Assembly: GCF_004217555.1 (NCBI RefSeq)
Contig: NZ_SHKW01000002.1
Location: forward strand, 372,001-436,000
Length of the DNA: 64,000 nucleotides
Reading direction: 5' to 3'
Source of the DNA: Edaphobacter modestus
Lineage (GTDB): Bacteria; Acidobacteriota; Terriglobia; Terriglobales; Acidobacteriaceae
Part shown: positions 18,374 through 50,834 of the stretch, piece after piece
How positions within the stretch are numbered: position 1 is the stretch's first letter
How the letters are laid out: every line of letters begins with the position of its first letter
The notes under the pieces: model-generated
Databases searched by the model: none
Seen by the model: the letters and a program-made list of their open reading frames with translations, nothing else
Told to the model about the DNA's origin: nothing
Made by a program: the position numbers and the translations under genes

Positions 18374-19348
18374 TCAGTACGGCAGCCTTTTGTCTCCAAC
18401 CTTTGCCTTGAGGATCTGCAACAAGACATTGTCACGCGCCGCTGCAATGTCGTTGGCCGTGTGAACCTTGAGAATCTCATTGATTCCAGCTTCGGCCTTC
18501 TCAGCCATCTGCGGAGTTACGTGCTCGATGCGACCGAGATCCGCCCACCAACCTTCCATCGCTGGACCGAGATGCTCGAGGAGATGTTTGATTCCCGCGT
18601 CTCCACCGCCCAGATTCGCGTTCATGAACTGGCCAAGGATGGCCCATCGCAGCCCAGGACCGTGTGCCATAGCGATGTCGATGTCGGCCAGGCTGGCCGC
18701 ATCTTGATCCAGCAAATAGAGCACCTCACGGAACACCGCGGCCTGAATTCGGTTCGCGATATGACCTTTCATTTCCTTCTTCATGCGAATCGGCTTCTTG
18801 CCGATCTGTGCATAGAATTTGACAGCACGTGTAACGTTCTCAGCGGATGTTAGCTTGCCTCCGACGACTTCGACCAGCGGGACGACGTGTGGTGGGTTGA
18901 AAGGATGCCCAAGCAGGATACGCGCCGGGTTGGTCGCCTCAGTTTGGAAATTCGAAACAGGAATGCCCGAAGAACTACTCGCAATGATGACATCGGGACC
19001 AACCGCGTCAGAAATGTCTTTGAAGAGCTTGAGCTTGAGATCTACCCGCTCTGGGCCGTTTTCCTGGACAAAGTCGACGCCTCTCAAAGATTCCTTCAGA
19101 TTCGTAGAAAACGTCAGGGTGTTCTTATCGGCACCTGGCTCAAGACCCATTTCCTCCAACAGCGGCCATGCGCTATCGATATACGCGCGCAACTTCTCCT
19201 CGGCGTTGGCCACGGGATCGGTTGCGCGCACCGCAAATCCTTTCGCGAGATAGTAAGCCGCCCAACTCATCCCGATCAGCCCACAACCCACGATACCGAC
19301 TGTTCTTACATTGAGATCATTTTTCATATTCTCCTCGATTGCGTTCAT
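18374..19348 (-). CDS. 3-hydroxyacyl-CoA / carnitine-gulonate type dehydrogenase, cassette 1 (324 aa)
   Basis: NAD-dependent oxidation of a 3-hydroxy group, judged by family. The N-terminal Rossmann fold has GIVGCGLIGMSWAAYYLAKG, followed by an aspartate (RATDP) that favours NAD. Catalytic residues of the family are all visible: serine in ASSSSGIP, histidine and glutamate in GHPFNPPHVVPLVEVVGG, and asparagine in KGHIANRIQAAV. The C-terminal helical dimerisation domain runs from about 190 to 324. The length and the DSAWPLLEEMGL segment resemble L-carnitine 3-dehydrogenase and L-gulonate 3-dehydrogenase more than fatty acid FadB. It is third in the minus-strand cassette after the CoA-transferase and propeller genes. 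Its paralogue at 48900 shares most motifs. A 115-bp vestige of the same type lies at 60522. The substrate is unknown. Confidence 0.88.
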   Translation of the reverse strand: MNAIEENMKNDLNVRTVGIVGCGLIGMSWAAYYLAKGFAVRATDPVANAEEKLRAYIDSAWPLLEEMGLEPGADKNTLTFSTNLKESLRGVDFVQENGPERVDLKLKLFKDISDAVGPDVIIASSSSGIPVSNFQTEATNPARILLGHPFNPPHVVPLVEVVGGKLTSAENVTRAVKFYAQIGKKPIRMKKEMKGHIANRIQAAVFREVLYLLDQDAASLADIDIAMAHGPGLRWAILGQFMNANLGGGDAGIKHLLEHLGPAMEGWWADLGRIEHVTPQMAEKAEAGINEILKVHTANDIAAARDNVLLQILKAKVGDKRLPY

Positions 19349-19423
19349 TACGCATGCTTCAGCCGGCTTCCATCCCGGCTCGAAGGTCGCGGTTTAGAAG
19401 ATCAGAAAGACGAGCCTCGCCGC

Positions 19424-20326
19424 TTACGCAACGTAGGCAATTCCAGTTAGGATTCCTAACTTTGCAATCGTGGTGAATTGCGCTTTGGCTTCGAGCGGGG
19501 CTACGCGTACTTCTCCACCGAGTTCTGTCGTAAACGCACGCTGATTGGCGTGATCGATGGCAAGCCCAATACCTTCCTGCAGTCCAGTTGCGAGTACCTC
19601 GTGGTTTTCCAGTTGCTTGGTACCGATACGGGCGCGGTTTAGCGAGTTGCCGCCATCGAGGTTGCCTCGGTCAGTCCAGTAGAGAAGGTTGTTCTTGGTG
19701 TCGAGTTCGAGATCGATCGGCTCAGGCAAGTGATCGATCAGTAGTTCGATATCCGTGCGGTTCTCGGGCTGCTGATCCGCCGGAATTTCAAGCCCGGCTC
19801 GGAAGATGCGCCCCTTGCCACCATCCGGTGGACCCTTTTGCGTCCAGTAGATATAGCGGTTCACCGGATCAACGGCAATGCCGACGCAGTGACGCATTAC
19901 GTCCTGCGAATCGGCAGGGAACACACCGTTGCGAACGAGAACAGTCACGTTTGAACCGTCGAGGTTCGAGCGCATCACGCGCATGGCCTCGCGATCACAC
20001 CAATACAAGAATCCCGCGCCGAAGTCGGCCGCTACCTGCTTGGGTGTCACCGTGAGGCCATGACCGACCAACATACGACGATTGGCACCGTTTAGCCCGA
20101 TGCACTCGATCGAACCGTCAGCCTGAAAAAAATCACCTTCACGTGGACCCATTGCCGGTCCCATGTTTGTCCAGTACAACGTCTTGGTCCTCTTGTCGAT
20201 AACGATTCCGTCTACGTTGTCGAGCAGATTCCCAAGCAGAGTGCGGCGATTGCTACCATCGGGATCCATCTCAATGATTTCGCCGCCTGGTCGGAGCTGG
20301 AGCATGTAGAGTTTTCCGGAATTCAT
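19424..20326 (-). CDS. YWTD-repeat beta-propeller protein, cassette 1 (300 aa)
   Basis: LDL-receptor class B (YWTD) repeats can be seen at LYWTNMG, LYWCDRE, IYWTQKG and LYWTDRG, each followed by the typical xxxLDGSN turn (MDPDGSNRRTLL, SNLDGSNVTVLV). They are spaced 40-50 residues apart, as in a six-bladed propeller. No signal peptide or membrane segment is present, so it should be cytosolic. This is unusual for this repeat class, which is mainly known from extracellular receptors. It sits between the CoA-transferase and the dehydrogenase genes with gaps of 158 and 75 bases. It could be a lactonase-like or other hydrolytic propeller, or a scaffold. No catalytic residues can be assigned by eye. 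Confidence 0.82.
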   Translation of the reverse strand: MNSGKLYMLQLRPGGEIIEMDPDGSNRRTLLGNLLDNVDGIVIDKRTKTLYWTNMGPAMGPREGDFFQADGSIECIGLNGANRRMLVGHGLTVTPKQVAADFGAGFLYWCDREAMRVMRSNLDGSNVTVLVRNGVFPADSQDVMRHCVGIAVDPVNRYIYWTQKGPPDGGKGRIFRAGLEIPADQQPENRTDIELLIDHLPEPIDLELDTKNNLLYWTDRGNLDGGNSLNRARIGTKQLENHEVLATGLQEGIGLAIDHANQRAFTTELGGEVRVAPLEAKAQFTTIAKLGILTGIAYVA

Positions 20327-20484
20327 GTTGTCCTCTCTTCTTCAAATTGCGATCAATGCCCGTTCAACTAAAGCCGGTTGCCAGGAACCCAACGATTCGT
20401 TCCCTTAACCGCCGACCATCGCCTAAGCGGGCTGTTGTCAAATCCGAACTGCTGACAGTCCGAAATGGGATACAAATATCCGAA

Positions 20485-22011
20485 TCAACTCAGCCACTCA
20501 GGTTTGTTCGATCCTCGCGGAACGATCACGGTCCGATACGACCCAGGAGACTTGGACAGGTAGACCTGCTCGTCGAGCCCCTGGTACGTGCCGAGCGGGG
20601 TCTCTGCGGTGAACAGATCCGGGGCGACATTTGTGTGCTCTTCAGAGGAGCCGGCCGTCGTATGAGCGTAGGCCCTGTCGAAGATGCCGAGCGAGAGCTG
20701 CCAGAGCACAGTGCGAGTGAGCGAGACGACGACCTTGTAGCTTCCTCCCTCCACGGCTCGCCTGCGCAGCGCTGCGAGAACGCCCACAGTGCCGAGCCAA
20801 CCCACAACGTTGTCGCAGATGGGTACAATGGGCGGCTGCTTCGGGCTGGTGAGCGACCCTTCCAGGGCGAAAACGCCCGCCACCGTTGCACCAATCTCAT
20901 CAAAGCCTGGCCGGTTCGCCCACGGACCATTTTCTCCGTGAAGAACGACGGTAGCGTGGATCAGTCCGGGCTTTTTTGCGCATAACTCTTCCGCATCCAG
21001 TCCGTGGGATTTCAAATAGCCAGGGCGCTTATTTGCGAAGAAGATGTCGGCATCCTTGAGTAACGCATCGAACTTGGCGCGATCCTCTTTAGAGGAATCC
21101 AGAATGGTAGAGCGCATGCCAACCTGAACGTCCCAGAAGAAGCCCTCTACTTCGGTGTCGTTGGGCCTCCAGATATTCAGGACGTCGGCACCATAGAAGG
21201 CTAGGTCTCGCCCAATTGCCGCGCCGGCAATCACATGACCCATTCCGAAGGCTCGAATTCCGTCGAGTGGAGATTTGGCGTCTGGCTTGAAAGGAATGGG
21301 CTCGCTTTCACCGATCTTCTCGACGGAAATTAGGGGCATCCCTGCGAGCACTTCGGTGTACTGCAACTCCTCGCGCAACTCTTCAAACGTACGAACTTTA
21401 GCAAGGACTAATCCCTCTTCGGCAGCAGCCGCCTCCAAGTCATCTGCACGCCATTGCAGAATGGAATTCTGGAGCGATTCGACGTTGTCGCTGCATCGGA
21501 AGAAGTTGAGTGCACGTTGATGCAGCTTAGGGTAGAAGTTCAGAGTCACGACATGCCGGCCATCGCGTGTTTCACGGAAGAGTGGAAATTTAAAGAAGGG
21601 ATTGTTGTCGAAGAAGCCCATTGCGGGAGAGCGCCCGTTCATGGTCTCCCAGATCCCTTCGAAGAAGCCGCCGAAGCGTCGAAAGGCTTTGCGAACGTCG
21701 ACATGAACGTCCTGGACCTGTCCAGTTCGGTCCCTCCACACCGCGGCAGCAGCAATAGTTTTGGCAGCGAGGCCTATGCCTGCCATCGTTGCAAATCGGA
21801 TCCGGCTAGGAACAATGGGATCTTGGCCATAGAAAGTTAGTTGCCCGCCGCTGTCTGCTGCTGACATTCCAACGTCTGCCAAAACTTGATTCACTCCTTC
21901 GTGGAAGTCGAAAGCTGAGGAGGTGGAAGGATTGTTTAGTTTGTCGACGATAGTCTCGGTTAAACGATCTGGGGCTTGAGTTTCTTCCTTAACCACGGAT
22001 ACATACCTCAT
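20485..22011 (-). CDS. Family III CoA-transferase with rearranged domain order, cassette 1 (508 aa)
   Basis: Residues 249-440 are the standard N-terminal CaiB/BaiF part: DGIRAFGMGHVIAG, FYGADVLNIWRP, ADIFFANKRPGYL, NRPGFDEIGATVAG. The expected catalytic aspartate is Asp400 in VPICDNVVGWLG. Residues 65-245 resemble the middle and C-terminal part of the same family (GIGLAAKTIAAAAVWRDRTG, then FRETRDGRHVVTLNFYP and a small domain). They come first and lack an aspartate at the equivalent position (RFATMAGIG). The protein thus looks like a truncated, inactive family unit fused in front of an active one. It probably moves CoA from an acyl-CoA donor to a hydroxy acid. It is first in the cassette. 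The ribosome binding site AGGAGTCTAAGTA before ATG is almost the same as in cassette 2. Confidence 0.85.
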   Translation of the reverse strand: MRYVSVVKEETQAPDRLTETIVDKLNNPSTSSAFDFHEGVNQVLADVGMSAADSGGQLTFYGQDPIVPSRIRFATMAGIGLAAKTIAAAAVWRDRTGQVQDVHVDVRKAFRRFGGFFEGIWETMNGRSPAMGFFDNNPFFKFPLFRETRDGRHVVTLNFYPKLHQRALNFFRCSDNVESLQNSILQWRADDLEAAAAEEGLVLAKVRTFEELREELQYTEVLAGMPLISVEKIGESEPIPFKPDAKSPLDGIRAFGMGHVIAGAAIGRDLAFYGADVLNIWRPNDTEVEGFFWDVQVGMRSTILDSSKEDRAKFDALLKDADIFFANKRPGYLKSHGLDAEELCAKKPGLIHATVVLHGENGPWANRPGFDEIGATVAGVFALEGSLTSPKQPPIVPICDNVVGWLGTVGVLAALRRRAVEGGSYKVVVSLTRTVLWQLSLGIFDRAYAHTTAGSSEEHTNVAPDLFTAETPLGTYQGLDEQVYLSKSPGSYRTVIVPRGSNKPEWLS

Positions 22012-22812: not shown

Positions 22813-22910
22813 ATTGCTTACTTCTTTGCGAAAGGGCTATTAATGCCCAACCTTTCTGCGGAACGTCGGCTCAAGCTATTCTGAAGAACCTGGGGTGGAG
22901 ATTTTGTACC

Positions 22911-23441
22911 ATGGCAAAGCTCGTCTATGGAATGAACCAGTCCTTGGATGGCTACGTCGACCATCTGGAATTTAGGCCAAGCCCGGCGCTCTTTCGTCAC
23001 TTCATAGAGCAAGCGCGCGACCTGACGGGCAGTGTGTACGGTCGCCGCATGTACGAGGTAATGCGTTATTGGGACGAAGACTGCCCGGATTGGGGCGCGG
23101 AGGAACACGACTTCGCGGCGGCGTGGCGGAGCCAGCCGAAGTGGGTTGTGTCGCGCACGTTGAAGTCGGTCGGACCCAACGCCACACTTGTCGAGGATGA
23201 CATCGAGGCGGTGATACGTGGGCTGAAGGCACAGCCAGTTGGGGAGATTGAAGTGGCCGGACCAGACTTGGCAGGAAGCCTAACCAACCTTGGTCTTATT
23301 GATGAGTATCGACTTTACCTCCACCCCATCGTACTTGGTCGCGGCAAGCCATTCTTCTCCGGCCCTCGGCCGCCGCTCCGCCTTGTGACCAGCGATCTCG
23401 TTGGCGAGGAAGTGATTAGGTTGACGTACGTTCCCGCTTAA
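22911..23441 (+). CDS. RibD C-terminal / dihydrofolate reductase-like protein (176 aa)
   Basis: The fold is shared by DHFR and the reductase part of RibD. Features are MAKLVYGMNQSLDGYVD at the N-terminus, the SVYGRRMYEVM helix, and EIEVAGPDLAGSLTNLGLID followed by LHPIVLGRGKPFF, the usual NADPH-binding half. The protein is full length for the single-domain stand-alone group, most of which have unknown substrates. ATG at 22911. It sits 98 bases behind the cold shock gene, with no reason to assume joint function. Confidence 0.85.
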   Translation: MAKLVYGMNQSLDGYVDHLEFRPSPALFRHFIEQARDLTGSVYGRRMYEVMRYWDEDCPDWGAEEHDFAAAWRSQPKWVVSRTLKSVGPNATLVEDDIEAVIRGLKAQPVGEIEVAGPDLAGSLTNLGLIDEYRLYLHPIVLGRGKPFFSGPRPPLRLVTSDLVGEEVIRLTYVPA

Positions 23442-24027: not shown

Positions 24028-25059
24028 TTACACTGTCAGTGCCTCGGGTACTGCGCGATAGTCCTGGCCCGTCGAGAGCACTGCCCACGCGATCCGCGCC
24101 AGTTTGTGTGCTGTTGCCACGATCAATACGTTTCGTGGCGCCCTCGTCTCAAGCGAGGTCATCCAGGCGCCCATCGCGATTCGGTCCCGCTTGGATCGCA
24201 ATACGACCGCGCGTGCTCCATGAATCAGGATCTTGCGCAGGTAAGAGTTACCGCGCTTGCTGATTCCATACAGCCTCACCTTGCCACCGGTCGAATGCTG
24301 GTTCGGTAGTAGCCCCAACCAGGCCGCGAACTCTCGTCCCTTGCGGAAGGCTGCGCCGTTACCGATGGAGGCCACGATCGCGGTTGCAACCAGCGGTCCG
24401 ATGCCAGGGATCTGCAGCAGTCTCCGACACGCAGCATCGCTCGAAGCGATCCGTTCCACTTCGTCGTTCATCTGCACGATCTGAAGCTCCAGGTCCTTCC
24501 ACTCGCTCCACAGCATGGCAACCAGGTTCCGCATCCTAGGGGTGAGGTTCTCGTTGACGTTCTCAAGCACCTCAGGCAGAGCTTCCCTCAGCCGAATCGG
24601 GCTCTTGGCGAACACGATGCCCCGCTCCAGCAGGAACGCACGAATCTGGTTGATCAGAGAAGTTCTTCGCGCCATGAGCCGGTCACGCACGCGATGGAGA
24701 GCTTGCAGGTCGAGCTGGTCATCTGTCTTGATCGGCACGAAGCGCATGTTCTCGCGATCCACAGCCTCAGCAATCGCTTCAGCGTCGATGAAATCGTTCT
24801 TGTTCGACTTCACAAACGGCTTCACGAACTGGGCTGGAATCAACTTCACATCATGGCCTTGTTCCCGTAAAGCACGGCCGAGGAAGTGCGACCCCGAACA
24901 TGCTTCCATCCCGATCAAGCAGGTCTGCATGTTCGCGGTGAAGGCAATCAACTGCTTCTGGGTAAACTTCTTCTTCAGCAGCACCTTGCCGTTATCACCA
25001 AGTGCCACCAGGTGAAAGGTCGTCTTGCCAAGGTCAATACCAACCGATCGAATCTGCAT
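24028..25059 (-). mobile_element. IS110-family transposase (343 aa)
   Basis: DEDD-type recombinase of IS110/IS1111 elements, which are directed by an RNA guide. The RuvC-like N-terminal domain shows SVGIDLGKTTFH (first Asp), CLIGMEACSGSHF (Glu) and KSNKNDFIDAEAIAEAV (paired Asp). The C-terminal Tnp2 domain has LLQIPGIGPLVATAIVASIG, GREFAAWLGLLPNQHSTGGK and the conserved serine region ISKRGNSYLRKIL. The gene is intact and of normal length. ATG 25059 lies close to the topoisomerase gene. Little room is left on that side for a 5' guide RNA, while 586 bases are free on the 3' side. Confidence 0.93.
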
Positions 25060-25089
25060 GTCGATGATCCTCCTTGAATCTGCCTACAA

Positions 25090-25175
25090 GATCTTCCGGG
25101 GAAGATCAAGCGGCGGACCATCTTAGTAAACTCACGTTCGATCGTAGCAAGCAGAGGTCGACAATTTACGATCGA
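25090..25175. promoter_or_regulatory. Two inverted repeats between IS110 and the topoisomerase-RecQ gene
   Basis: GATCTTCC/GGAAGATC (25090-25107, 2-base spacer) may belong to the IS110 end or its target. TCGATCGTA (25138-25146) with TACGATCGA (25167-25175) is a 9-bp dyad just upstream of the start at 25203 and could be an operator. No promoter boxes were assigned. Confidence 0.4.
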
Positions 25176-25202
25176 GTTGAGCGTCTAGACCTGAAGGTAC
25201 AA

Positions 25203-28200
25203 ATGAAAGCAAGCGAATCCAGTACCGTTGCGGTCCTGACTGAAAAGCCATCTGTCGCACGAGACATTGCCCGTGTCCTCGGAGCCGACAAGCGAGGCGA
25301 AGGCTATCTCCAGGGAAACGGCTATGTGGTCACCTGGGCGATTGGACATCTGGTTTCCCTCGCACAACCGCACGAAATCAATCTTCAATGGCGGCAATGG
25401 CGCATGGATCTGTTGCCGATCCTGCCCGAGCAGTGGCCACTGGTTGTCTACGAGCGAACCAAAGATCAGTTCGAAGTGGTGCGAAAGATTCTAACGTCGG
25501 CGCGTGTGTCGCGGATAGTATGCGCGACGGATGCTGGGCGGGAAGGCGAACTGATCTTCCGCTACATCTACGATGCGGCTGAAAGCAAAAAGCCGGTCAG
25601 CCGACTTTGGATTTCTTCGCTGACTCCGGATGCCATCCGAAAAGGGTTCGACAATCTTCGCCCAGGCAGTCAATATGATCGATTGGCGGACGCGGCCAGT
25701 GGCCGAAGCCGAGCCGATTGGCTTGTTGGCATGAATCTGTCACGGGCCTATTCACTTTTCTATAGTGAGGAGCTTTCCGTCGGACGGGTGCAGACGCCGA
25801 CTCTGGCCATGCTTGTCGATCGCGAACTTACCCTCCGCAATTTTGTCTCCGAAGACTACATCGAGGTTGTCGCGACGTTTCAGGGACGGGAAAATCAGGA
25901 TAAGGAAACCTATCAAGGCACATGGTTCCGTCCGCAAACAGGGTCGAAAAAGGGCAACAACGCTCAGGCCAACAACTCGCGATTGCCTGCCGATGGCCAG
26001 GATGCCAAAAGCATCATCCTTCGCGCTCGTGCGGGAGAAGCGGTCATTGAGTCACTCTCTTCCGAGACGCAGCGGATGCAACCACCCCTGCTTTACGACC
26101 TCACTGAGCTGCAGCGGCATGCGAATCGTCTGTTTGGCTTTAGTGCCCAAGAGACTCTTGATATCGCGCAGGCACTCTATGAACGGAACAAACTGATCAG
26201 CTATCCAAGGACGGATAGTCGTCATCTCTCTGTTGACGTTGCCGCTACAGCTCCAGGCATTGTCGCCGCAGTTTCCGCAAGCTATCAGAAGCAACTGGCT
26301 GCAGGAACAGGGGAGCGCCCACTTGGAAAGCGATTTGTCGACGACAGTAAGGTGAGCGACCATCACGCCATCATTCCCAATGCAGTTTCCCCCGAGAAGG
26401 CCAACCTGACGGAAAAGGAACGCAAGATTTACGGTTTGATCTGCAGCCGCTTCCTCATGATGTGGCATGACGATCACATTCAGTCCGTGACGACCGTGAT
26501 TACCGCAATCACGCATGAGGAATTCGTGGACCGCTATCGAACCACGGGGACTGTCGTGCAACAGTTGGGTTGGAAGGTCCTTGACGTTGGGTCGGAGGGG
26601 CGAAAGAGAGAGGCAAAGGGCAGGGATGAGGAGAAAACTCCGGAGCAGATCTTGCCAGTAAATCTTGCCATAGGACAGCCACAGGACATCGCGAATATAG
26701 AGGCCAAGAAAAAGAAGACCAAACCCCCGAAGCGATTTACCGAGGGCACACTCTTGACCGCGATGCAGACGGCGGGTCAAAGCCTCGACGAGAAAGAACT
26801 GTCCGAGGTGATGAAAGAGACGGGCCTCGGTACGCCTGCCACACGGGCGGCCACGATCGAAGTGCTATTGAAGCGTGGCTATATCGTTCGCTCGGGGAAG
26901 GTTCTAGAGGCAACAGAAAAGGGGATCCATCTTATAGAAGTGGTTCATCCCGAAGTCAAGAGTCCTGCGATGACCGGCCAATGGGAGGCCTTTCTCAAGA
27001 AGATCCAACTTGGTGAATCCCAGCTGGAGCCATTCCTGGATGGCATCTGTCAATACGTGCGTTCGGTTGTCAGCAAGGTTCGTCAGACTTCGCCAGTTCA
27101 ACTTGCGCCGCCGCGCCCCGCATCGACAAAGACTTCCGATCCTTCTGGTCTCCCCAGTCCAAAGAAATTCCTCAACAGCACAAGTCTCCCCGAACTCTTG
27201 CAAAACGCGTTCGGCTTCGCCCAGTTTCGCCCTAACCAGGAAGCCGTCTGTCGGGCAGTAACCGCGGGAAAAGACGCGCTGCTTGTCATGCCGACCGGCT
27301 CGGGCAAGTCGCTTTGTTACCAGCTGCCTGGATTGGCACGAGGTGGAACCACTCTCGTGATCAGTCCACTCATAGCATTGATGGACGATCAGGTGCAGAA
27401 GCTGAAAGAGAAAGGCCTCGCTGTTGAATGCATCCATTCAGGTCGTGATCGTGAAACTTCGCGCCGTATCTGTTCCGACTACCTCGGCGGCAAATTGCAG
27501 TTTCTCTTCATTGCTCCCGAACGACTTCGGGTGGCAGGCTTTCCCGAAATGCTGGCCAAGCGAAAACCATCACTGATCGCGATCGATGAAGCGCACTGCA
27601 TCTCGCAATGGGGCCACGATTTTCGACCTGACTATCGGATGCTTGGCCAGTATCTACCTGGTCTTCGTCCTGCTCCGATGCTGGCGCTCACGGCCACAGC
27701 AACACCGCTGGTCCAGAACGACATTGCAACTCAGCTAGGCTTGACTGAGCCCGCACACTTCATCCATGGTTTCCGCCGCGAAAACATCGGCATCGAGCTT
27801 GTAGAAGCTTTGCCTTCGCAACGGTCTCAGCTCGCTCGGGAGATCCTGCTCGAAGGCAAACACCGCCCAGCCATCGTGTACACCCCTACGCGCAAGCAGG
27901 CTGACGCTCTGGCGGAAGAGTGGGCAAGCGAGTTTGCCGTAGCCGTATACCACGCCGGACTGGATGCCGAGCGACGGCGGCAAGTGCAGGAAGAATTCAT
28001 GGCGGGCAAACTGGACGTCATGGTGGCAACCACGGCGTTCGGTATGGGGATCGATAAGACGAATATCCGAACCGTGATTCACACCGCCCTTCCAGGCAGT
28101 CTGGAAGGGTATTACCAGGAGATCGGCCGCGCGGGGCGCGACGGAAAAGCGAGTCGCGCCATTTTGATGCACTCGTATGGAGACCGTCATACCCATGACT

Positions 28201-39885: not shown

Positions 39886-41028
39886 ATGCCTGTTAGCTTC
39901 CTCTCGAACGAACAGCGCGAGAACTATGGCCGCTACACCGGAGTTCCTTCGCTTGACGACCTCGCCCGCTACTTTCATCTGGACGATGCCGATCATGCGG
40001 TGATCGCAAAAAAGCGCGGCGACCACAACCGGCTCGGCTTCGCCGTGCAACTCAGCACGGTCCGCTACCTCGGCACTTTTCTTGACGATCCGATGGCTGT
40101 GCCCGCGGTGGTACTTCACACGCTGGCTAAACAACTGTGCATGAACGTTGGGGAAGGCGGGTTGACTTACAGTGCCGGCGAACAGCGCTGGCTGCATGCA
40201 ACGGAGATCCGCGTTGCTTACGGTTATGTAGAAATCACCGAGCAGAGGGCAGCCTTCCGTCTTACCCGCTGGCTTTATGCGTTGTGCTGGACAGGAACCG
40301 ATCGGCCAAGTGTGCTGTTTGAGCGGGCGACTACATGGCTGGTGATGCACAAGGTGCTGCTACCAGGTTGTACGACCCTTGAACGTTATATCGCTCGCCT
40401 GCGCAGTCGGGTCGAGGAGAGGCTATGGCGTTCTCTCGCCGATGGCATTGGCAAGGAACAACAGACGAAACTTGAAGATTTACTGGCCGTGCCAGCGGGC
40501 AGCCGCGGTTCGCAACTCGACCGTCTGCGCACGGGACCGGTAACCGTGAGCGGTCCATCGTTGATTGAAGCCTTGCTGCGTCTGCGCTCGGTGCGCGAAC
40601 TACGCATCAAATTGCCGCCGGCCACGCACATCCCGGCGGTTAGGATAGCAGCCTTGGCGCGTTTTGCCGGTGCCGCAAAGGCAAGTGCGGTTCTGCGCTT
40701 ACCGAACCCACGCCGCTTGGCCACGCTGGTTGCCTTCGTGTATTGCCTGGAAGCGACCGCACTCGATGACGCGCTGGAGGTGCTCGAAGGCCTGCTGCGA
40801 GATTTGTTTGGTGATGCCGTCAAGGCCGACAAGAAATCACGCCTGCGTACGCTGAAGGATCTTGACCAGGCCGCGGCGACTCTGGCCATTGCCTGCCGCA
40901 TGCTGATCGACCCTGAACTGCGGGATGCCGAGGTCCGCTGGCGGTTGTTTGAGGTGATCCATCATCGTTGCGGCTTCCCCGTACAGAATTTGACAAAATC
41001 GAGGGCATCTTCGTATTTTAGATATTAA
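39886..41028 (+). pseudogene. Tn3-family transposase TnpA, N-terminal third only
   Basis: The DUF4158-type N-terminal DNA-binding region is intact: MPVSFLSNEQRENYGRYTGV, DDLARYFHLDDADHAVIAKK, YGYVEITEQRAAFRLTRWLY. It is followed by the helical middle region to about residue 365. Similarity ends near 40985 and the frame closes at 41028 within unrelated promoter DNA. A full TnpA has about 990 residues with a C-terminal DDE domain, and all catalytic residues are missing. The element is therefore immobile. Its truncation point touches the repeated operator region before the isochorismatase gene. Confidence 0.88.
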
Positions 41029-41029
41029 G

Positions 41030-41045
41030 TCGAGGGTCTCCTCAA
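41030..41045 (+). promoter_or_regulatory. Palindromic operator copy A (before the isochorismatase gene)
   Basis: TCGAGGGTCTCCTCAA matches the perfect palindromes at 47081 and 57123, with one arm mismatch (CCTCAA instead of CCTCGA). It lies 14 bases before the TTG start at 41060. GGAGCTACGTTGAACTCATT after it is shared with copy B. Confidence 0.6.
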
Positions 41046-41059
41046 TTTTTGGAGCTACG

Positions 41060-41629
41060 TTGAACTCATTGAATCTCGACTCAAAAAAAACCGCTCTCGT
41101 CATCATCGACCTGCAGAATGCTATCGTCGGCATGAATACTGCGCCCCATCCCGCCGCTCAGATCGTTGAAAATTCAAAAAAACTTGCCGAAGCCTTCCGC
41201 GCCAAGGGCGCATCGGTCGTTTATGTTCGCGTCGACCTGAATGATTTGCTAAAGTTTCAAGTCGACGAGCCGCACAACATGGGTGATAAGCCAATACCCG
41301 CTGTGGCCTCGGAGATCGCCGCTTCCGCGGGTTTCCAACCCAGCGACATCCTCATCACAAAGCGCCACTGGGGCGCCTTTGCCGGCACAGACCTTGAGCA
41401 ACAGCTCAAGAGCCGTGGCGTCGACACAGTTGTCCTCACCGGTATCTCCAGTAACGTCGGCGTCGAATCCACCGCCCGCCAGGGCACCGGATTCGGCTTC
41501 GCCTTTGTGGTTGTCGAGGACGCCTGCTCTGCTCAGGACGCTGATCAGCACCGCTTCGCCTTCGAGAAGACCTTTCCGCGTCTGGCGAGGGTAAGGAAGA
41601 CCGATGAGGTCATCGCTGCCCTTGCTTAA
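41060..41629 (+). CDS. Isochorismatase-like hydrolase (189 aa)
   Basis: Cysteine-hydrolase/isochorismatase fold: catalytic aspartate in LVIIDLQNAIVG, lysine in ILITKRHWGAFAGTDLEQQL and a cis-peptide segment VLTGISSNVGVESTARQ. At the position where amidase-type members have cysteine (NVCVE) this protein has glycine. That is as in true isochorismatases and argues against nicotinamidase-like chemistry. Start TTG 41060 with GGAG 5 bases upstream and an operator copy. A truncated copy of its first codons precedes cassette 2, which shows that this promoter-start unit has been duplicated. The gene is followed by an MFS exporter 75 bases downstream, likely the same operon. Confidence 0.85.
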   Translation: MNSLNLDSKKTALVIIDLQNAIVGMNTAPHPAAQIVENSKKLAEAFRAKGASVVYVRVDLNDLLKFQVDEPHNMGDKPIPAVASEIAASAGFQPSDILITKRHWGAFAGTDLEQQLKSRGVDTVVLTGISSNVGVESTARQGTGFGFAFVVVEDACSAQDADQHRFAFEKTFPRLARVRKTDEVIAALA

Positions 41630-41704: not shown

Positions 41705-43117
41705 GTGAGCCTCGATCCGGCTACCGACGTCGAGCAGGCAAATGAATCTTCTTCAAGGCATCACGCAGACTTCGGCTTTCGTTTCGTCACGCCGCTCGCG
41801 CTCGGGTCGACGCTAAATCCGATCAATTCGACGATGATTTCAACGGCGCTGGTAGCGATCGCGAGGGACTATCAGGCGAGCGTGACTCAGACCGGATGGC
41901 TCATCGCGGGCCTCTATCTAACCAGCGCCATTGCCCAGCCCGCGATGGGGCGCCTGGCGGACCTGTTTGGTCCGCGCCGAGTCTATCTTTTCTCGCTCTG
42001 TGTCGTGGCGGTCGCTGGCATGGCCGGGGCAATCGCTCCGTCATTGGGCACGCTGATCGCTGTCCGTGTCTTGCTCGGAATAGGAACCTCGGGGGCCTAT
42101 CCGTCTGCGATGCGCATCTTCCGCACGCAGGCTGACCGTATTGGTGCGGACCCGCCGCGTCTCGCCATGGGCTTTATGTCGTTTGCCGGGGCCGCGACGA
42201 CTGCCATCGGGCCTGTGCTTGGCGGGGTTCTGACCGGATACTTCGGGTGGCACTCGATCTTCACGGTGAACCTTCCCCTCTCGCTCCTCACCATCCTCCT
42301 CGTTCTACTGTGGGTTCCCAAAGATGAGCAACCCGCCGGCAGCTTTGTGCTCCTGTTGGAGGAACTTGATCTGATTGGCATCGCACTGTTCGCGGCCTTT
42401 CTGTTGAGCCTGATGCTGTTCCTGATGAATCTCGACCATCCCATGTGGCTGGTCTTGCCTGTTGCCGCCGTTTTTGGAGTCATGCTGGTCATTCACTCCT
42501 TGCGCCGAAAGCAGCCATTCATCGACGTGCGCATGCTGGTCCGCAACCGCCCTCTGACTGTGACTTATCTGCGTATTGCCGCGATCCTGCTGATCGTCTA
42601 TTGCATCCTCTACGGCTTTGCTCAATGGCTTGAGGCCGGAGCTGGCTTCAGCAGTTCCAGAGCAGGCCTCGTCACACTGCCGATGTCCGTCCTAGCCGTT
42701 GTGGCGTCGCTCGCGGGCGCGCGCACCAAGGGAATCCGAACCCCCTTCATCGTGAGCACCGCAGCAGCCCTGATCGGCTGCTTGTGCCTGTTCCTTATCA
42801 ACCACGAGACGCCTGTGTGGATGATCGCTGCGGCCGTCATGCTCTTCGGCCTGCCGACTGGTCTAGCATCCACCGCAACGCAGGCAGCGGTCTATATCCA
42901 GGCGCCGGTGAACGAGATCGGCACTGCCTCCGGCTTGCAACGAACGGCGACTTATATCGGCGCGATGACCTCGACCAGTCTTCTCGGTCTCATGTACGGT
43001 CGCCACGCGACCGACCACGGCCTCCATAACCTCGCCCTGGTTATGGGAGCGCTGAGCGTAGTTCTTCTCGTCGGAACTATCTTCGACAGAACGCTTCCGC
43101 GCGGTTACATCGGCTAA
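41705..43117 (+). CDS. MFS transporter (470 aa)
   Basis: Twelve to fourteen hydrophobic helices. Motif A is visible in the first loop (GRLADLFGPRRVYLFSLCVV), and antiporter motif C is seen around GPVLGGVLTGYFGWHSIFTV. The N-terminal 30 residues are polar and cytoplasmic. This places it near the DHA2 drug/H+ antiporters. The start is GTG 41705, since no ATG fits. It lies 75 bases behind the isochorismatase-like gene and may export a related compound. A second, divergent MFS gene lies on the opposite strand downstream (43559-45169). Confidence 0.88.
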   Translation: MSLDPATDVEQANESSSRHHADFGFRFVTPLALGSTLNPINSTMISTALVAIARDYQASVTQTGWLIAGLYLTSAIAQPAMGRLADLFGPRRVYLFSLCVVAVAGMAGAIAPSLGTLIAVRVLLGIGTSGAYPSAMRIFRTQADRIGADPPRLAMGFMSFAGAATTAIGPVLGGVLTGYFGWHSIFTVNLPLSLLTILLVLLWVPKDEQPAGSFVLLLEELDLIGIALFAAFLLSLMLFLMNLDHPMWLVLPVAAVFGVMLVIHSLRRKQPFIDVRMLVRNRPLTVTYLRIAAILLIVYCILYGFAQWLEAGAGFSSSRAGLVTLPMSVLAVVASLAGARTKGIRTPFIVSTAAALIGCLCLFLINHETPVWMIAAAVMLFGLPTGLASTATQAAVYIQAPVNEIGTASGLQRTATYIGAMTSTSLLGLMYGRHATDHGLHNLALVMGALSVVLLVGTIFDRTLPRGYIG

Positions 43118-45169: not shown

Positions 45170-45205
45170 TTAGAAAGGCCCTTTTCTTTGCACCTTCACG
45201 CGGTG

Positions 45206-45860: not shown

Positions 45861-45942
45861 GAATAGTTATCCCGATACCGCTGGCCGAGTTTTAGTCTGA
45901 CCGGTCCCGCCTCAACGGAAGTTACGAAAGGGAAAATTCTCC

Positions 45943-46593: not shown

Positions 46594-46623
46594 ACTTCCC
46601 GACACGCACAGAAGGTTCGCATT

Positions 46624-46672
46624 TGATGAGACGTTCATGGAACGCCTCATCGAGTTCCTATGGGACCCTTCC
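46624..46672 (+). pseudogene. tetR fragment
   Basis: The translation ETFMERLIEFLWDPSA matches AETFLERVVEFLRERPA of the intact TetR protein at 56136-56783, and the DNA is similar as well. The rest of the gene is missing here. Confidence 0.6.
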
Positions 46673-46743
46673 GCGATTCATTGAGGACTGCTCGGATCGG
46701 CGAAAGCTCCACTGCTGGGAATGGTGCGCTGATCCTTTCGGCA

Positions 46744-46978
46744 GGTGACCAAGGAATCACAGCGTCCTCCTTTTCGTTACTTCGACAAGAGCAACCTCGC
46801 CGAAGTCGTCAAGAATTCTGACGCGTTGCATAGCGGTACGTGATGATGAGCGGTCTCCTTGCTTGGCTCATCTGGATATTGATCCACATACAGTCTCTGG
46901 CTGAGGGCAGCTTGCGGTTCAGCGTCTTTTTTCACTGGGTCGGGGACGTACCTCGGTGCAAGCCCGGCTGTCTTTGAA
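46744..46978 (+). pseudogene. Decayed 3' end of an ndh (NDH-2) gene
   Basis: Pieces read PPFRYFDKSNLAEVVKNSDA and, after a break, LAWLIWILIHIQSLAEGSLR followed by FSVFFHWV. They match PPFRYFDKGNLAVVGKNFAV and VAWLVWALIHIQFLAETSLR of the intact NDH-2 at 50969-52240. Stops and indels interrupt it. A similar fragment lies at 56880-57032. Confidence 0.75.
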
Positions 46979-46984
46979 GTGCTC

Positions 46985-47165
46985 ATAACTGCAAATCTGC
47001 GCCATCAGCTCAACATCATGCTTGCCATAAACATGTAATAGATCAAGGGTGTCCAGTGACATATTGTCTTATTCATAAAGTCGAGGTGGACCTCGATTAT
47101 GGAGCTACGTTGAACTCATTGGATCTCGAACGACAAAAGACCGCCTTCGCATCCAACGGGCGTCC
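46985..47165 (+). repeat. Duplicated regulatory module copy B with leader of the isochorismatase gene
   Basis: This stretch is closely similar to 57035-57145 and, inverted, to about 55950-56125. Shared parts include AACATGTAATAGAT, AGTGACATATTGTCT and ATTCATAAAGTCGAGG. Its end (47105-47165) repeats GGAGCTACGTTGAACTCATT and the first codons of the isochorismatase gene (LNSLDLERQKTAF), which then runs into unrelated DNA. It now precedes cassette 2 and may supply its promoter. Confidence 0.7.
47081..47096 (+). promoter_or_regulatory. Palindromic operator copy B (before cassette 2)
   Basis: TCGAGGTGGACCTCGA is a perfect 7-2-7 palindrome, directly behind ATTCATAAAG, a possible -10 region. Copies occur at 41030, 56012 and 57123. 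The CoA-transferase start follows at 47232. Confidence 0.7.
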
Positions 47166-47231
47166 GGAACTGAGACGAGGCGTAGCGTTTCAGAAAAACA
47201 CGTTGCACTCACATCATCCAGGAGTCTAGAC

Positions 47232-48758
47232 ATGCGATCTGTATCCGCGATTAAGGAAGAAACGCAAGCCTCATCTCATTTGACTGAGACTATCGTCGAC
47301 AAATTAAGCAATCCCTCCACCTCTTCGGATTTTGATTTACATGCAGGAGTGAATCAAGTGCTTGCAGATGTGGGAATGTCAGCCGCGGACAGCGGTGGGC
47401 AACTAACTTTCTATGGCCAGGACCCGATCGTTCCCAGTCGGATCCGGTTTGCTACGACGGCAGGCATAGGACTTGCCGCAAAAACCATTGCTGCCGCGGC
47501 GATTTGGAGAGACCGAACCGGGCAGGGCCAGGACATTCATGTCGACATCCGAAAGGCGTATCGACGCTTCAGCGGCTTCTTCGATGGGATCTGGGAGACC
47601 ATAAACGGGCGCTCTCCCGCAATGGGAGTCTTTGAAAATAGTCCCTTCTTAAAGTTTCCCCTCTTCCGTGAGACACGTGATGGCCGGCATATCACGTGTC
47701 TGAGTTTCTATCCTAAAGCGCATCAACGCGCACTCAAGTTCTTCCGTTGCAGCGACAGCCTCGAATCACTTCAGAATTCCATTCTGCAGTGGCGCGCCGA
47801 TGACCTTGAGGTCGCTGCAGCGGAAGAGGGTTTGATCCTTGGCAAAGTTCGCACATTTGAAGAGTTCAGCAAAGAGCTGCAGTACACCGAAGTGCTTGCG
47901 AAGATGCCCCTGATCTCCGTCGAGAAGATCGGTGAAAGCGAGCCTGTTCCATTCAAGCCAGACGCCAAAGCACCACTTGACGGCATTCGGGCCTTCGGAA
48001 TGGGCCATGTGATTGCTGGCGCTGGAATGGGGCGGGATCTGGCCTTCTATGGTGCCGACGTCCTGAATATCTGGAGGCCTGACAACGCCGAAGTAGAGGC
48101 CTTCTTCTGGGACGTTCAGGTTGGCATGCGTTCTACCATTCTGGACTCCTCTAAGGAAGATCGCGCCAAATTCGATACCTTGCTCAAGGATGCCGACATC
48201 TTCTTCGCAAACAAACGCCCTGGCTATTCGAAGTCCAACGGGCTGGATGCGGAAGAATTATGTGCGAAAAAGCCAGGACTGATCCACGCCAGCATCGTTC
48301 TTCACGGAGAAACAGGGCCGTGGTCGAACCGGCCTGGCTTTGACGAGACTGGTGCAACGGTGGCGGGTATTTTTGCTGCCGAAGGGTCTCTCGCCAGTCC
48401 GAAGCAGCCGCCTATTAAGCCCATCTGCGACAACGTTGTGGGCTGGCTCGGCACTGTGGGCATTCTCGCAGCGCTGCGCAGGCGCGCCGTGGAGGGAGGA
48501 AGCTACAAGGTTGTTGTCTCGCTCACTCGCACTGTGCTCTGGCAGCTGTCGCTCGGCCTCTTCGATAAAACTTTTGCGCAAACGGCGGCCGGCTCCACGG
48601 AAGAACGGACCAATGTCGCCCCGGATGTGTTCACCGCAGAGACTCCGCTCGGCACCTACCAGGGGCTCGACGAGCAGGTCTACCTGTCCAAATCACCCGG
48701 ATCGTTTAGGACCGTGCTCGTTCCGCGAGGATCGAACAAACCTGAGTGGCGGAGTTGA
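47232..48758 (+). CDS. Family III CoA-transferase with rearranged domain order, cassette 2 (508 aa)
   Basis: Same length as the cassette 1 protein and collinear with it throughout. By eye, most residues are identical. The active CaiB/BaiF part is in the second half: DGIRAFGMGHVIAGAGMGRD, GADVLNIWRPDNAE, and Asp400 in KPICDNVVGWLG. The first half again lacks the aspartate (IRFATTAGIG) but keeps RDRTGQGQDIHVDIRKAYRR. The ribosome binding site CCAGGAGTCTAGAC precedes ATG 47232. An operator module of the tetR-linked type lies upstream, unlike in cassette 1. The predicted role is CoA activation of a hydroxy acid that the next gene's dehydrogenase oxidises. The exact substrates of both copies are unknown, and slight divergence could mean different specificity. 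Confidence 0.87.
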   Translation: MRSVSAIKEETQASSHLTETIVDKLSNPSTSSDFDLHAGVNQVLADVGMSAADSGGQLTFYGQDPIVPSRIRFATTAGIGLAAKTIAAAAIWRDRTGQGQDIHVDIRKAYRRFSGFFDGIWETINGRSPAMGVFENSPFLKFPLFRETRDGRHITCLSFYPKAHQRALKFFRCSDSLESLQNSILQWRADDLEVAAAEEGLILGKVRTFEEFSKELQYTEVLAKMPLISVEKIGESEPVPFKPDAKAPLDGIRAFGMGHVIAGAGMGRDLAFYGADVLNIWRPDNAEVEAFFWDVQVGMRSTILDSSKEDRAKFDTLLKDADIFFANKRPGYSKSNGLDAEELCAKKPGLIHASIVLHGETGPWSNRPGFDETGATVAGIFAAEGSLASPKQPPIKPICDNVVGWLGTVGILAALRRRAVEGGSYKVVVSLTRTVLWQLSLGLFDKTFAQTAAGSTEERTNVAPDVFTAETPLGTYQGLDEQVYLSKSPGSFRTVLVPRGSNKPEWRS

Positions 48759-48899
48759 CTCGGATATTCGTATTCCATTTCGGACCGCCATCAGTCGGAT
48801 TTGACAAGAGAGCGTGCAGGCAAAGGTAGGCGGTCAAGGGAACGCAATCGTAATTCTTGCGGCCCTCGCTGAGAAATTCAAACAACAAGGAGAATTATT

Positions 48900-49841
48900 A
48901 TGGCAAAAATCGAAGAGATTCAGAATATAGCTATAGTCGGCACAGGAGTCATCGGTGCAAGCTGGGCGGCTTATTACCTGTCCCGCGGATTCAGCATAGT
49001 TGCAACCGACCCCGCGCCGAATGCGGAGGCTAATCTTCGCAAGTATGTTGACGAGGCCTGGACAATCCTCAGCAAAAGCGGCCTGTCCCCCAACGCTTCG
49101 CGTGCCCGGTTGAGCTTCGCGCCAAGCATGGCTCAGGCGCTCGCGAAAGCGGACTTTGTTCAGGAAAACGGACCCGAACGCCCTGACTTCAAGGTGAAGT
49201 TATTCGCAGAGATAGACGATGCCACCCCTGCTGGCTCGATCATCGCCTCAAGTTCCTCAGGCATCACGATGGATGTTATCCAGTCCGGGTGCAAGCGTCC
49301 CGAGAGGTGTGTGATCGGACATCCGTTCAATCCGCCTCACGTCATTCCGTTGGTTGAAGTGGTAGGCGGAGCCAAAACGTCGCCCGAAACGATCGAGAGG
49401 GCCATGGCGTTTTATAAGTCGATTGGGAAAAAGCCGATTCGTCTGTTTAAGGCGCTTCCCGGTCACGTCGCCAACCGGCTGCAGGCGGCTCTCTATAGAG
49501 AGGTGCTCTACCTAATTCAGCAGGGCGTACTGAGCGTCGCCGATGCCGACATCGCAGTGAGCTATGGGCCCGGACCTCGATGGGGCGTGATGGGACCTAG
49601 CCTCCAGTGGCACCTCGGCGGAGGGCAGGGCGGGATTCAGCATTTTATGGACCACATCATGGGTCCTATGGAGTCCTGGATGAAGGCTCTCGGCACCCCT
49701 GACATTACGCCGGAGTTGAAGCAGACCGTCATCGACGCCGTCCTGCAAATAGCGGGCAATCGCACGGTCGAGCAGCTGGCTGCAAAAGAGAACGAAGTCG
49801 TTACTGGGCTCCTCAGCAGTCGCACGAAGGCCGGTCTCTAG
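48900..49841 (+). CDS. 3-hydroxyacyl-CoA / carnitine-gulonate type dehydrogenase, cassette 2 (313 aa)
   Basis: Rossmann motif AIVGTGVIGASWAAYYLSRG with aspartate in VATDPAPNAEANLR (NAD preference). Catalytic set: serine (ASSSSGITMD), histidine and glutamate (IGHPFNPPHVIPLVEVVGGA) and asparagine (PGHVANRLQAALYREVLYLI). The C-terminal helical domain reaches residue 313. ATG 48900 has AAGGAG 8 bases upstream. It is second in this cassette, while in cassette 1 the dehydrogenase is third. The gene order has therefore changed while the three partners stayed together. It resembles the carnitine 3-dehydrogenase and L-gulonate 3-dehydrogenase groups, but the substrate could also be a CoA ester because of the CoA-transferase neighbour. 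Confidence 0.88.
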   Translation: MAKIEEIQNIAIVGTGVIGASWAAYYLSRGFSIVATDPAPNAEANLRKYVDEAWTILSKSGLSPNASRARLSFAPSMAQALAKADFVQENGPERPDFKVKLFAEIDDATPAGSIIASSSSGITMDVIQSGCKRPERCVIGHPFNPPHVIPLVEVVGGAKTSPETIERAMAFYKSIGKKPIRLFKALPGHVANRLQAALYREVLYLIQQGVLSVADADIAVSYGPGPRWGVMGPSLQWHLGGGQGGIQHFMDHIMGPMESWMKALGTPDITPELKQTVIDAVLQIAGNRTVEQLAAKENEVVTGLLSSRTKAGL

Positions 49842-49886
49842 CCTTTGCTTCGAAGGACATTGAAAACACAACAAGGAGATTTGTAC

Positions 49887-50834
49887 ATGAATACGGTAAC
49901 TTCAACACCAATCAACGCAGGAGCTGATAAGTCAACTGCGCCCGGGCGCCTCTTTTTCCTGGATAACGGAGCCGGCCGCGTGTTGACCGCAAACCCGGAC
50001 GGTTCTGATTTGAGGACCCTCATCGACAAAGGCCCCAAAGGGCCGGACGGAGTGGTGGTCGACGCCGCCGCCGGACACATCTACTGGACCAACATGGGCA
50101 ATTTTAAAGAGAATGATGGCGCCATCCTCCGCTCGGATCTCGATGGCAAAAACGTCATCACCATCGTTCCTCCAGGTGGCACATTCACGCCCAAGCAGAT
50201 CAAACTCGAGAAGAAGAGCGGCAAGCTCTACTGGACAGACCGCGAAGGAATGCGGGTGATGCGAGCAAACCTGGATGGGTCGAAGATCGAAACTCTCGTG
50301 GACACGAGCCACGGGGATTTACGCCCCGGACAGGACGTGAGGAAATGGTGTGTCGGCATCGCCGTGGACGCTGAAGGCGGCAAGTTTTATTGGACCCAGA
50401 AAGGGCCTGCCAACGCCGGTGATGGCCGAATCTTTCGGGCTAACATCAGTATCCATAAAGGTCAGTCACCCTCGAATCGCACTGACATTGAACTTCTTTA
50501 TGAAAAGCTGCCTGAGCCAATCGATCTCGACTTCGACCTCGCCAATCGGAACCTTTATTGGACCGACCGCGGTGATCCGCCGCGTGGCAACACGGTGAAT
50601 CGTGCGCCCATGGACCCGCTTCCAGGAAATCGCAAGGAGCCTGAGATCCTTTTCACCCATTTAGAGGAAGGCATAGGGCTGGCTTTAGACCTGAAAGGCG
50701 GTCGCATGTTTATCACGGATTACGCCGGCTCGCTCTACAGCGCCAATCTCGACGGATCAAACCGGAAAACGTTGGCGTATGCGGAAGGCAACCTCACTGG
50801 CATCGCATATGTAGAGCTGCCGGCCTGGCACTAA
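49887..50834 (+). CDS. YWTD-repeat beta-propeller protein, cassette 2 (315 aa)
   Basis: YWTD motifs at IYWTNMG, LYWTDRE, FYWTQKG and LYWTDRG, with LDG-type turns (RVMRANLDGSKIETLVD, SANLDGSNRKTLAY). The start is ATG 49887 behind AAGGAG. The frame extends 14 codons further upstream without a ribosome binding site. It has no signal peptide, so it is cytosolic. It differs from the cassette 1 copy by a longer N-terminus. The conserved association with the CoA-transferase and dehydrogenase in both copies argues that it is a functional partner, perhaps a lactone hydrolase or a complex scaffold. That is inference from context only. A nested inverted repeat follows at 50861. Confidence 0.83.
   Translation: MNTVTSTPINAGADKSTAPGRLFFLDNGAGRVLTANPDGSDLRTLIDKGPKGPDGVVVDAAAGHIYWTNMGNFKENDGAILRSDLDGKNVITIVPPGGTFTPKQIKLEKKSGKLYWTDREGMRVMRANLDGSKIETLVDTSHGDLRPGQDVRKWCVGIAVDAEGGKFYWTQKGPANAGDGRIFRANISIHKGQSPSNRTDIELLYEKLPEPIDLDFDLANRNLYWTDRGDPPRGNTVNRAPMDPLPGNRKEPEILFTHLEEGIGLALDLKGGRMFITDYAGSLYSANLDGSNRKTLAYAEGNLTGIAYVELPAWH

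Follow-up and report, generated by a model that had tools for sequence, protein, structure and literature searches.

A CoA-transferase, 3-hydroxyacyl dehydrogenase and YWTD propeller trio in Edaphobacter modestus: possible core of a mobile CoA-ester module with respiratory genes

This analysis concerns three genes that stand together twice in a stretch of 64,000 nucleotides (the window) at positions 372001-436000 of contig C2 of the 7.4-Mb Edaphobacter modestus genome. They encode a long family III coenzyme A (CoA) transferase, a 3-hydroxyacyl dehydrogenase (HCDH) and a YWTD propeller. Copy 1 is transcribed from the minus strand in the order CoA-transferase, propeller, HCDH, followed by the gene for an OprB porin. 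Copy 2, on the plus strand, reads CoA-transferase, HCDH, propeller and then an NDH-2-like NADH:quinone reductase (hereafter NDH-2). An earlier note, made from the sequence alone, had given these positions (Table 1), strands, gene orders and protein families, and they hold: in both copies the Pfam matches (CoA_transf_3; 3HCDH_N with 3HCDH; Ldl_recept_b) each exceed the gathering score.

The two window copies are not simple duplicates. Pairwise alignment, which the note had proposed, gives 86% protein identity for the CoA-transferase, versus 48% for HCDH and 46% for the propeller. At the DNA level the strong match (85.5%) consists of the CoA-transferase gene and its immediate flanks, and the propeller yields a single weak match of 102 bases. 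Promoter and terminator scans showed no enrichment relative to shuffles.

Two more gene groups of this kind lie elsewhere in the genome: a third trio and a fourth, related cluster. The third trio, at position 828712 of contig C1, nearly equals copy 1 (propeller 98.7%, HCDH 98.1%, CoA-transferase 97%, and OprB, which also lies 3' of the trio at 13955-15676 of locus L016, 93%). It is divergent to genes for an outer-membrane efflux protein (OEP), a HlyD-type membrane fusion protein and a FUSC-family pump. The fourth cluster, at 56.5-65.8 kb of C1, has genes for HCDH, propeller, acyl-CoA dehydrogenase (ACAD), AMP-ligase, a standard CoA-transferase, enoyl-CoA hydratase (ECH) and NDH-2. A syntenic block on contig C3, in part decayed, comprises a histidine kinase, relics of NDH-2 and HCDH, and efflux genes. 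Near that block (loci L151 and L135) are a malate:quinone oxidoreductase, two class II fumarases, a malic enzyme, a DASS anion symporter and CydAB; a broken cydA occurs at two more places in the genome (L153:9215-9588 and L154:9365-9756).

A scan of GTDB genomes gave 434 pattern matches, 411 of which encode a propeller relative. The best 80 of these 411, picked solely by propeller similarity, were analysed, so all neighbourhood counts describe the loci closest to the query. The counts are based on tblastn and hidden Markov model annotation, since greedy picking of open reading frames (ORFs) in high-GC (guanine-cytosine) loci yields antisense ORFs. HCDH is on the propeller's strand in 68 of the 80 loci, with the propeller first in 58 and HCDH first in 10; the two lie less than 300 bases apart in 65 of the 68, with a median gap of 25 bases. 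Both HCDH and a family III CoA-transferase are present in 63/80 loci (32/45 organism labels).

The propeller is accompanied by the other two genes in Acidobacteriota, Alpha-, Beta- and Gammaproteobacteria and Streptomyces. The same trio is found in bins labelled Mycobacterium, Streptosporangiaceae, Verrucomicrobiales and Olavius symbiont, taking these labels as given, and on rhizobial plasmids, two annotated ones of which are typed conjugative. Within Acidobacteriota the parts are rare and patchy. With the genome studied here counted, the CoA-transferase was matched in 2/297 genomes (E<=1e-60), the propeller in 7/396 (E<=1e-40) and HCDH in 4/396 (E<=1e-60). Three of the seven propeller genomes, from another family, have no HCDH match at E<=1e-60.

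Trees were built from 20, 33 and 37 sequences picked out of the loci. The CoA-transferases of copies 1, 2 and 3 form one clade (support 100/100). The HCDH and propeller of copy 2 group with other acidobacterial and proteobacterial clusters, nearest to L025 (where the CoA-transferase is spread over two ORFs), and those of copy 1 fall far outside these groups. The copy 1 propeller joins one from a Pantoea plasmid (97/78, not starred); the exact place of the copy 1 HCDH is unsure because of a long-branch warning in its tree. A very divergent clade of long CoA-transferases, from Granulicella (L042) and the Olavius symbiont (L044), adjoins HCDH and propeller genes of the main groups. The trees suggest that in copy 1 a recently copied CoA-transferase was joined to an old HCDH-propeller pair, and the three families seem to have been assembled together more than once.

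This changes part of what the earlier note had argued. Its picture of rearranged copies that retained all three genes through reshuffling oversimplifies, as the CoA-transferases arose by recent duplication, the HCDH-propeller pair is an older lineage and the copies are chimeric. Repeated assembly of the same three families would argue more strongly for a shared function than reshuffling does. The common pathway which the note proposed is well supported, as the triplet recurs over several phyla and on rhizobial plasmids; the 63 loci with all three also show that the families do not meet only in this window. The note knew of no described pathway with this set, and among the titles and abstract openings returned by an open-access literature search there was likewise none, nor any description of the trio or its parts as a set.

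That the three genes hitch-hike on mobile DNA without a common function is very improbable. Relics and repeated blocks are common near the copies, and a transposase-like ORF (by eye, 24028-25059) lies close to copy 1. Such passengers would, however, hardly account for very short same-strand gaps in 65/68 loci over several phyla, for conserved active-site residues, or for independent re-assembly from different lineages.

The clusters come in two types, one with the long CoA-transferase of 508 amino acids, the other with a standard CoA-transferase together with ACAD and ECH. Among the 80 loci 27 have the long enzyme, 39 the standard one and one has both. ACAD is found in none of the 27 long-type loci; in the 36 standard-type loci with HCDH it occurs in 31 and ECH in all 36. 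An AMP-ligase is found in 11/80 loci. With its CoA-transferase, ACAD, ECH, HCDH and sometimes AMP-ligase, the second type resembles the cai operon and beta-oxidation sets. It differs in the added propeller, in the frequent presence of NDH-2, a quinol oxidase or both, and in the lack of a nearby thiolase match: one PF00108 thiolase of this genome, used as the only thiolase type probed, had no match (E<=1e-5) in 87 sequences (the 80 loci, four plasmid loci, the window, L015 and L016).

The likeness raises the idea of a carnitine- or betaine-type pathway, in which CoA-transferase, ACAD and hydratase would act like CaiB, CaiA and CaiD, and HCDH on carnitine or an analogue. The cai operon has the same enzyme classes as the second cluster type, and L-carnitine dehydrogenase is the best NCBIfam model for both HCDH copies. 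These score only 280 and 289 bits against a cut-off of 414, however, and 237 and 225 bits against 592 for a second carnitine dehydrogenase model. The other models fare no better: the CaiB-type model gives the long enzyme 28 of 413 bits and the standard enzyme of L018 80 of 413, and the CaiA-type and CaiD-type models reach 140 of 540 and 169 of 500. Such a pathway is improbable, and carnitine, named as a substrate in the earlier note, does not seem to fit at 225-289 bits against cut-offs of 414-592. A more general chemistry along the lines of the note, in which CoA is attached and a 3-hydroxy compound is oxidised with NAD, does fit the families and their conserved residues. In HCDH, His141, Glu153 and Asn192 are conserved in 73/73 sequences. 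Its best solved relatives (3ado, 4om8, 3f3s) tie it to lambda-crystallin, L-gulonate 3-dehydrogenase and L-carnitine dehydrogenase; unlike these it is paired with a propeller and usually also with a CoA-transferase, and it stays far under the carnitine cut-offs.

The window CoA-transferases match PF02515 with 135.5 and 134.4 bits (cut-off 23.3). The C-terminal half, from amino acid 245 onward, corresponds to PF02515 positions 1-233 and matches solved structures of the Frc, YfdE and CaiB type. The N-terminal half (about amino acids 60-220) matches the middle and end of family III enzymes. It aligns around PF02515 positions 161-268 in 24/26 members (best E 3e-7), though the window member's half reaches 19.1 bits, under the cut-off. 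A profile comparison with the standard enzyme places it at 176-335 (E 8e-4, probability 24%), and the long enzyme has a weak second match to residues 293-338 of 4ed9; queried by itself, the N-terminal half had no significant relative among solved structures. The canonical domain order does not seem to be kept, the second half coming before the first in the sequence. The halves of the long enzyme thus appear to be swapped with the middle kept twice, which sets it apart from family III enzymes such as CaiB/BaiF and Frc, and it is about 27% identical to the standard enzyme of the sister clusters. The family's nucleophilic Asp is kept: Asp400 aligns with an Asp in four solved relatives and is conserved in 31/31 sequences. 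It is the expected nucleophile, presumably the counterpart of Frc Asp169.

The propellers match PF00058 with 38.3 and 44.4 bits (cut-off 21). For PF08450 (SMP-30/gluconolactonase) copy 2 reaches 23 of 26.3 bits, under the cut-off, and copy 1 is unlisted. Solved LRP2/4/6 and designed Pizza proteins match, and the repeats are shared with LDL-receptor class B propellers. The module propeller differs from these in being single, free, about 305 amino acids long, apparently cytosolic, and in having invariant polar residues. Asp54, Lys103, Gln104, Glu210 and Glu261 are invariant in 87/87 sequences and Cys155 nearly so; these residues suggest a role as an enzyme or in ligand binding. Rhizobial plasmid records name the propeller '3-hydroxyacyl-CoA dehydrogenase' (L009:9004-9918, L010:8983-9897, L018:11980-12885, L022:10001-10936). 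This is a misnomer, unsupported by its Pfam match, and was probably carried over from the neighbouring gene.

The module's surroundings include respiratory genes, a recurrent context that the earlier note missed, as it did the efflux genes. These were counted within about 10 kb, with bd and bo3 types taken as quinol oxidase. In the 63 complete loci NDH-2 is found in 30, a quinol oxidase in 25 and either in 36 (18/32 organism labels). Bradyrhizobium makes up 28/80 loci, and without it either gene is present in 19/39 complete loci. Long-type loci have NDH-2 in 15 of 27, quinol oxidase in 13 and either in 18, with FUSC in 4 and HlyD in 7; for the 36 standard-type loci with HCDH the figures are 15, 12 and 18. 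Among the remaining 17 propeller loci, 1 has NDH-2, 2 have an oxidase and 3 have either, a contrast that is weakened because several of them are cut short by contig ends. NDH-2 lies less than 400 bases from the closest core gene in 21/30 loci and on the strand of a core gene in 25/30. By chance it would be expected in 1.3/80 loci versus 31 seen, at a rate that assumes the six full copies of this genome and ignores relatedness and differences between genomes.

Some arrangements are compact. In Granulicella L042 one strand reads NDH-2, HCDH, propeller, CoA-transferase, CydA, CydB, (response regulator), HlyD, FUSC, OEP. Rhizobial plasmids have propeller, HCDH, CoA-transferase, NDH-2, a hypothetical gene, heme o synthase and cyoABCD; in one, the fetched stretch ends in cyoC. 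In Paraburkholderia caribensis a divergent trio, 38-47% identical to the window proteins, adjoins cyoAB.

Separately, five Paraburkholderia replicons (L019, L020, L137, L138, L139) encode a distant propeller less than 3 kb from sdhAB, together with a LysR gene and a small upstream ORF; the L020 annotation there reads sdhCDAB. This spare sdh set was set aside as evidence on the module, since these species are closely related and neither HCDH nor CoA-transferase matched there. In the Olavius symbiont bin, a bile-acid-type symporter, an SMP-30 gluconolactonase and a glucose-dehydrogenase-like enzyme follow the trio (L044:13463-16732).

In the window, NDH-2 lies 134 bases 3' of copy 2. It is 90% identical to the NDH-2 of the fourth cluster, matches the Pyr_redox_2 domain (PF07992) and has 26.4 bits for PF22366 (NDH2_C), slightly under the cut-off of 27.7. 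The earlier note had taken OprB and NDH-2 as flanks; OprB does lie 3' of copy 1, but NDH-2 looks like part of the module. A second NDH-2-like gene at 9364-10743, 38% identical to that of copy 2, has no module genes adjoining. HCDH relics stand directly 5' of two near-identical OEP-HlyD-FUSC sets (window 60525-60614; L134:14006-14134). In the window, the relic and the first part of the OEP ORF share a reading frame; the true OEP start is probably inside the ORF, downstream of the relic. The best NCBIfam model of the window FUSC pump is MdtO, at 220 of 821 bits. Elsewhere, 25074-29231 is an ORF of 1385 amino acids which by eye fuses a topoisomerase-like part to a RecQ-like helicase part.

Table 1 Features of the window, with the trio copies first (aa, amino acids; nt, nucleotides)
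Feature	Position	Strand	Evidence or remark
HCDH copy 1, lambda-crystallin/carnitine-dehydrogenase-like 3-hydroxyacyl dehydrogenase	18374..19348	-	PF02737 7e-42; PF00725
YWTD propeller copy 1, deep branch	19424..20326	-	PF00058 1.8e-9; tree
Family III CoA-transferase copy 1, apparently order-swapped	20485..22011	-	PF02515 3e-39 over aa 249-467
Family III CoA-transferase copy 2, apparently order-swapped; expected nucleophile Asp400 by homology	47232..48758	+	
HCDH copy 2	48900..49841	+	PF02737 1.6e-45
YWTD propeller copy 2, alternative TTG start at 49845	49887..50834	+	PF00058 2.3e-11
OprB porin, 3' of copy 1	16438..18276	-	PF04966 9e-28
Palindrome, operator-like, two mismatches	41026..41045	.	
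Isochorismatase-family hydrolase	41060..41629	+	PF00857; NF008517 196.1 bits, cut-off 195
EmrB-like (DHA2) MFS transporter	41705..43117	+	PF07690; TIGR00711 128.5 of 230.2 bits
NDH-2 relic, C-terminal part, immediately 5' of copy 2	46736..46941	+	tblastn
Intergenic element before copy 2	46946..47231	+	parts recur at 10 other genome places
Palindrome before copy 2, operator-like, perfect arms	47077..47096	.	
NDH-2-like NADH:quinone reductase, 3' of copy 2	50969..52240	+	PF07992 3.6e-48
Response regulator	52515..53162	+	PF00072
Multi-PAS histidine kinase	53317..55869	-	PAS_3, HisKA, HATPase_c
Palindrome between histidine kinase and TetR genes, operator-like, two mismatches	56012..56031	.	
TetR-family regulator	56136..56783	+	PF00440, PF17918
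Second NDH-2 relic (aa 353-402)	56835..56981	+	
Palindrome, operator-like, perfect arms	57119..57138	.	
PIG3-family NAD(P)H:quinone oxidoreductase	57164..58150	+	TIGR02824 351.6 bits, cut-off 296.8
Alpha/beta hydrolase	58744..59604	+	PF00561 1.8e-27
MaoC-like dehydratase	59660..60481	+	PF01575 5e-14
HCDH relic 5' of efflux genes	60525..60614	+	to copy 1: 30 aa 83%, 108 nt 89%
Outer-membrane efflux protein (OEP)	60555..62123	+	PF02321 3.6e-52
HlyD-type membrane fusion protein	62392..63609	+	PF16576, PF13437
FUSC-family pump, start	63612..64000	+	extends beyond window, C2:435612-437816

The intergenic element before copy 2 contains a 20-base palindrome, AAAGTCGAGG-N4-CCTCGA. With zero or one mismatch it occurs at eight sites (nine rows); C2 and C3 account for all of them and the 6.1-Mb C1 has none. 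Allowing up to two mismatches gives 33 rows versus 12 for a reversed control. Sites with at most two mismatches precede copy 2 with NDH-2; the genes for PIG3 quinone reductase, a hypothetical protein, hydrolase, MaoC and OEP-HlyD-FUSC; and, in two occurrences, the isochorismatase-family hydrolase with the EmrB-like transporter. On C3 the hydrolase, MaoC and efflux genes appear again, along with PoxB, a PAS kinase and two gene pairs: a UbiD-type decarboxylase with muconate cycloisomerase after it, and an AHSA1 gene with a hydroxyarylic acid decarboxylase subunit (VdcC) after it. The scores of PIG3, PoxB, VdcC and muconate cycloisomerase exceed the NCBIfam cut-offs. TetR genes are divergent at four of the sites. 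A palindrome before several units and beside a regulator gene is the pattern of a TetR regulon, seen in this genome only, and we infer that TetR binds it.

Our preferred reading, put forward tentatively and at somewhat less than even confidence, is of a CoA-ester module that moves horizontally, has the trio as its core, processes one carboxylic acid or several of one family that most likely disturb respiration, and is bundled with a respiratory bypass. In a first step the CoA-transferase would load the acid with CoA taken from a donor such as succinyl-CoA, with Asp400 as nucleophile and the substrate being our inference. In the second cluster type only, ACAD and ECH would then install a 3-hydroxyl. 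HCDH with NAD+ would next produce a 3-keto compound, and the propeller may act on or bind the product, which is the weakest step. NDH-2 and a bd or bo3 quinol oxidase would make up a short chain from NADH over quinone to oxygen that bypasses complex I and bc1/aa3, maintaining electron flow while the module removes the acid. That the acid disturbs respiration, and is probably aromatic or derived from an aromatic acid, is suggested by the frequent bypass, by FUSC in some genomes and by the palindrome-linked genes; the regulon's genes are the main reason for proposing the aromatic character. Fusaric acid, usnic acid, 3-nitropropionate, rotenoids, mimosine and phenazines were dropped as substrates for lack of evidence. 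A stronger version, a self-contained mobile system for resistance by degradation, in which the trio, with a propeller of new catalytic function, destroys a carboxylic acid that poisons the respiratory chain while an inhibitor-tolerant mini-chain (NDH-2 plus bd or bo3 oxidase) and an efflux pump protect the cell, is rather unlikely.

Several findings weigh against the preferred reading. Neither NDH-2 nor a quinol oxidase is found in 27/63 complete loci; some are cut by contig ends, and the 27 include 7/8 Burkholderiaceae loci with the long CoA-transferase. The same enzymes could equally serve NADH reoxidation or low oxygen. FUSC pumps occur in only 5/80 loci (tail probability 0.05, or 0.36 at twice the copy number); in long-type loci, with 4/27, the values are 0.004 and 0.042. 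A TetR relative (E<=1e-15, 60% coverage) is near the module in 0/80 loci and 0/4 plasmid loci, a count that leaves out the window, L015 and L016. Other regulon genes near the module are few in 84 loci (PIG3 relatives 3, PoxB 2, hydrolase 2).

The palindrome itself has no perfect match in the 80 loci. It has 28 matches with one mismatch; in a control with 30 permutations of the arms the mean was 6.8 (standard deviation 12.9) and 28 was reached in 2/30. One match alone lies at most 300 bases upstream of a module gene, before NDH-2 in L032. As palindrome and TetR are not placed this way in relatives, the regulon evidence is limited to one genome. Even here, the match nearest to copy 1, which differs at one base from a 17-base pattern, is at 23190, some 1.2 kb upstream and within a different ORF, the fetched stretch of the fourth cluster has three-mismatch matches only, and the element of copy 3 retains just part of the palindrome.

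Ordinary catabolism of a carbon source, such as a plant or humic acid, by way of a CoA ester and with no toxicity involved, is quite possible, if on the doubtful side. NDH-2 and quinol oxidase would then drain the resulting NADH, either fast or at low oxygen, and HCDH is indeed expected to yield NADH. The second cluster type holds most of a beta-oxidation set (ACAD 31/36, ECH 36/36), with the AMP-ligase in 11/80 loci pointing the same way. The OprB porin 3' of copies 1 and 3 and the bile-acid-type symporter of L044 would also suit it. To our knowledge, however, catabolic operons seldom bring their own NDH-2 and terminal oxidase, and here these recur near the module across phyla. In this genome the palindrome also stands 5' of genes for efflux, a quinone reductase and PoxB.

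Efflux genes in some loci, sensor kinases by some (a large type in 28/80 loci, a PAS type in 8/80) and the presence of the module on conjugative plasmids would also suit a biosynthetic or tailoring cassette, for a signal or secondary metabolite that is then exported. Against this, no polyketide synthase, nonribosomal peptide synthetase or other scaffold-making gene was noticed among the annotated plasmid stretches and recurrent clusters, which had no dedicated search, and the aromatic-acid decarboxylases and muconate cycloisomerase of the regulon point to breakdown. We consider such a cassette hardly probable.

A trio so strongly conserved across phyla and on plasmids, with no description in the literature searched, hints at a common compound of soil with an undescribed microbial fate. 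If the acid does poison respiration, this would be an unusual case of a degradation route moving together with a spare respiratory chain, and the operator and the enzymes could lead to the compound. The CoA-transferase with apparently swapped halves and the YWTD propeller with its invariant residues are further novelties that can be tested.

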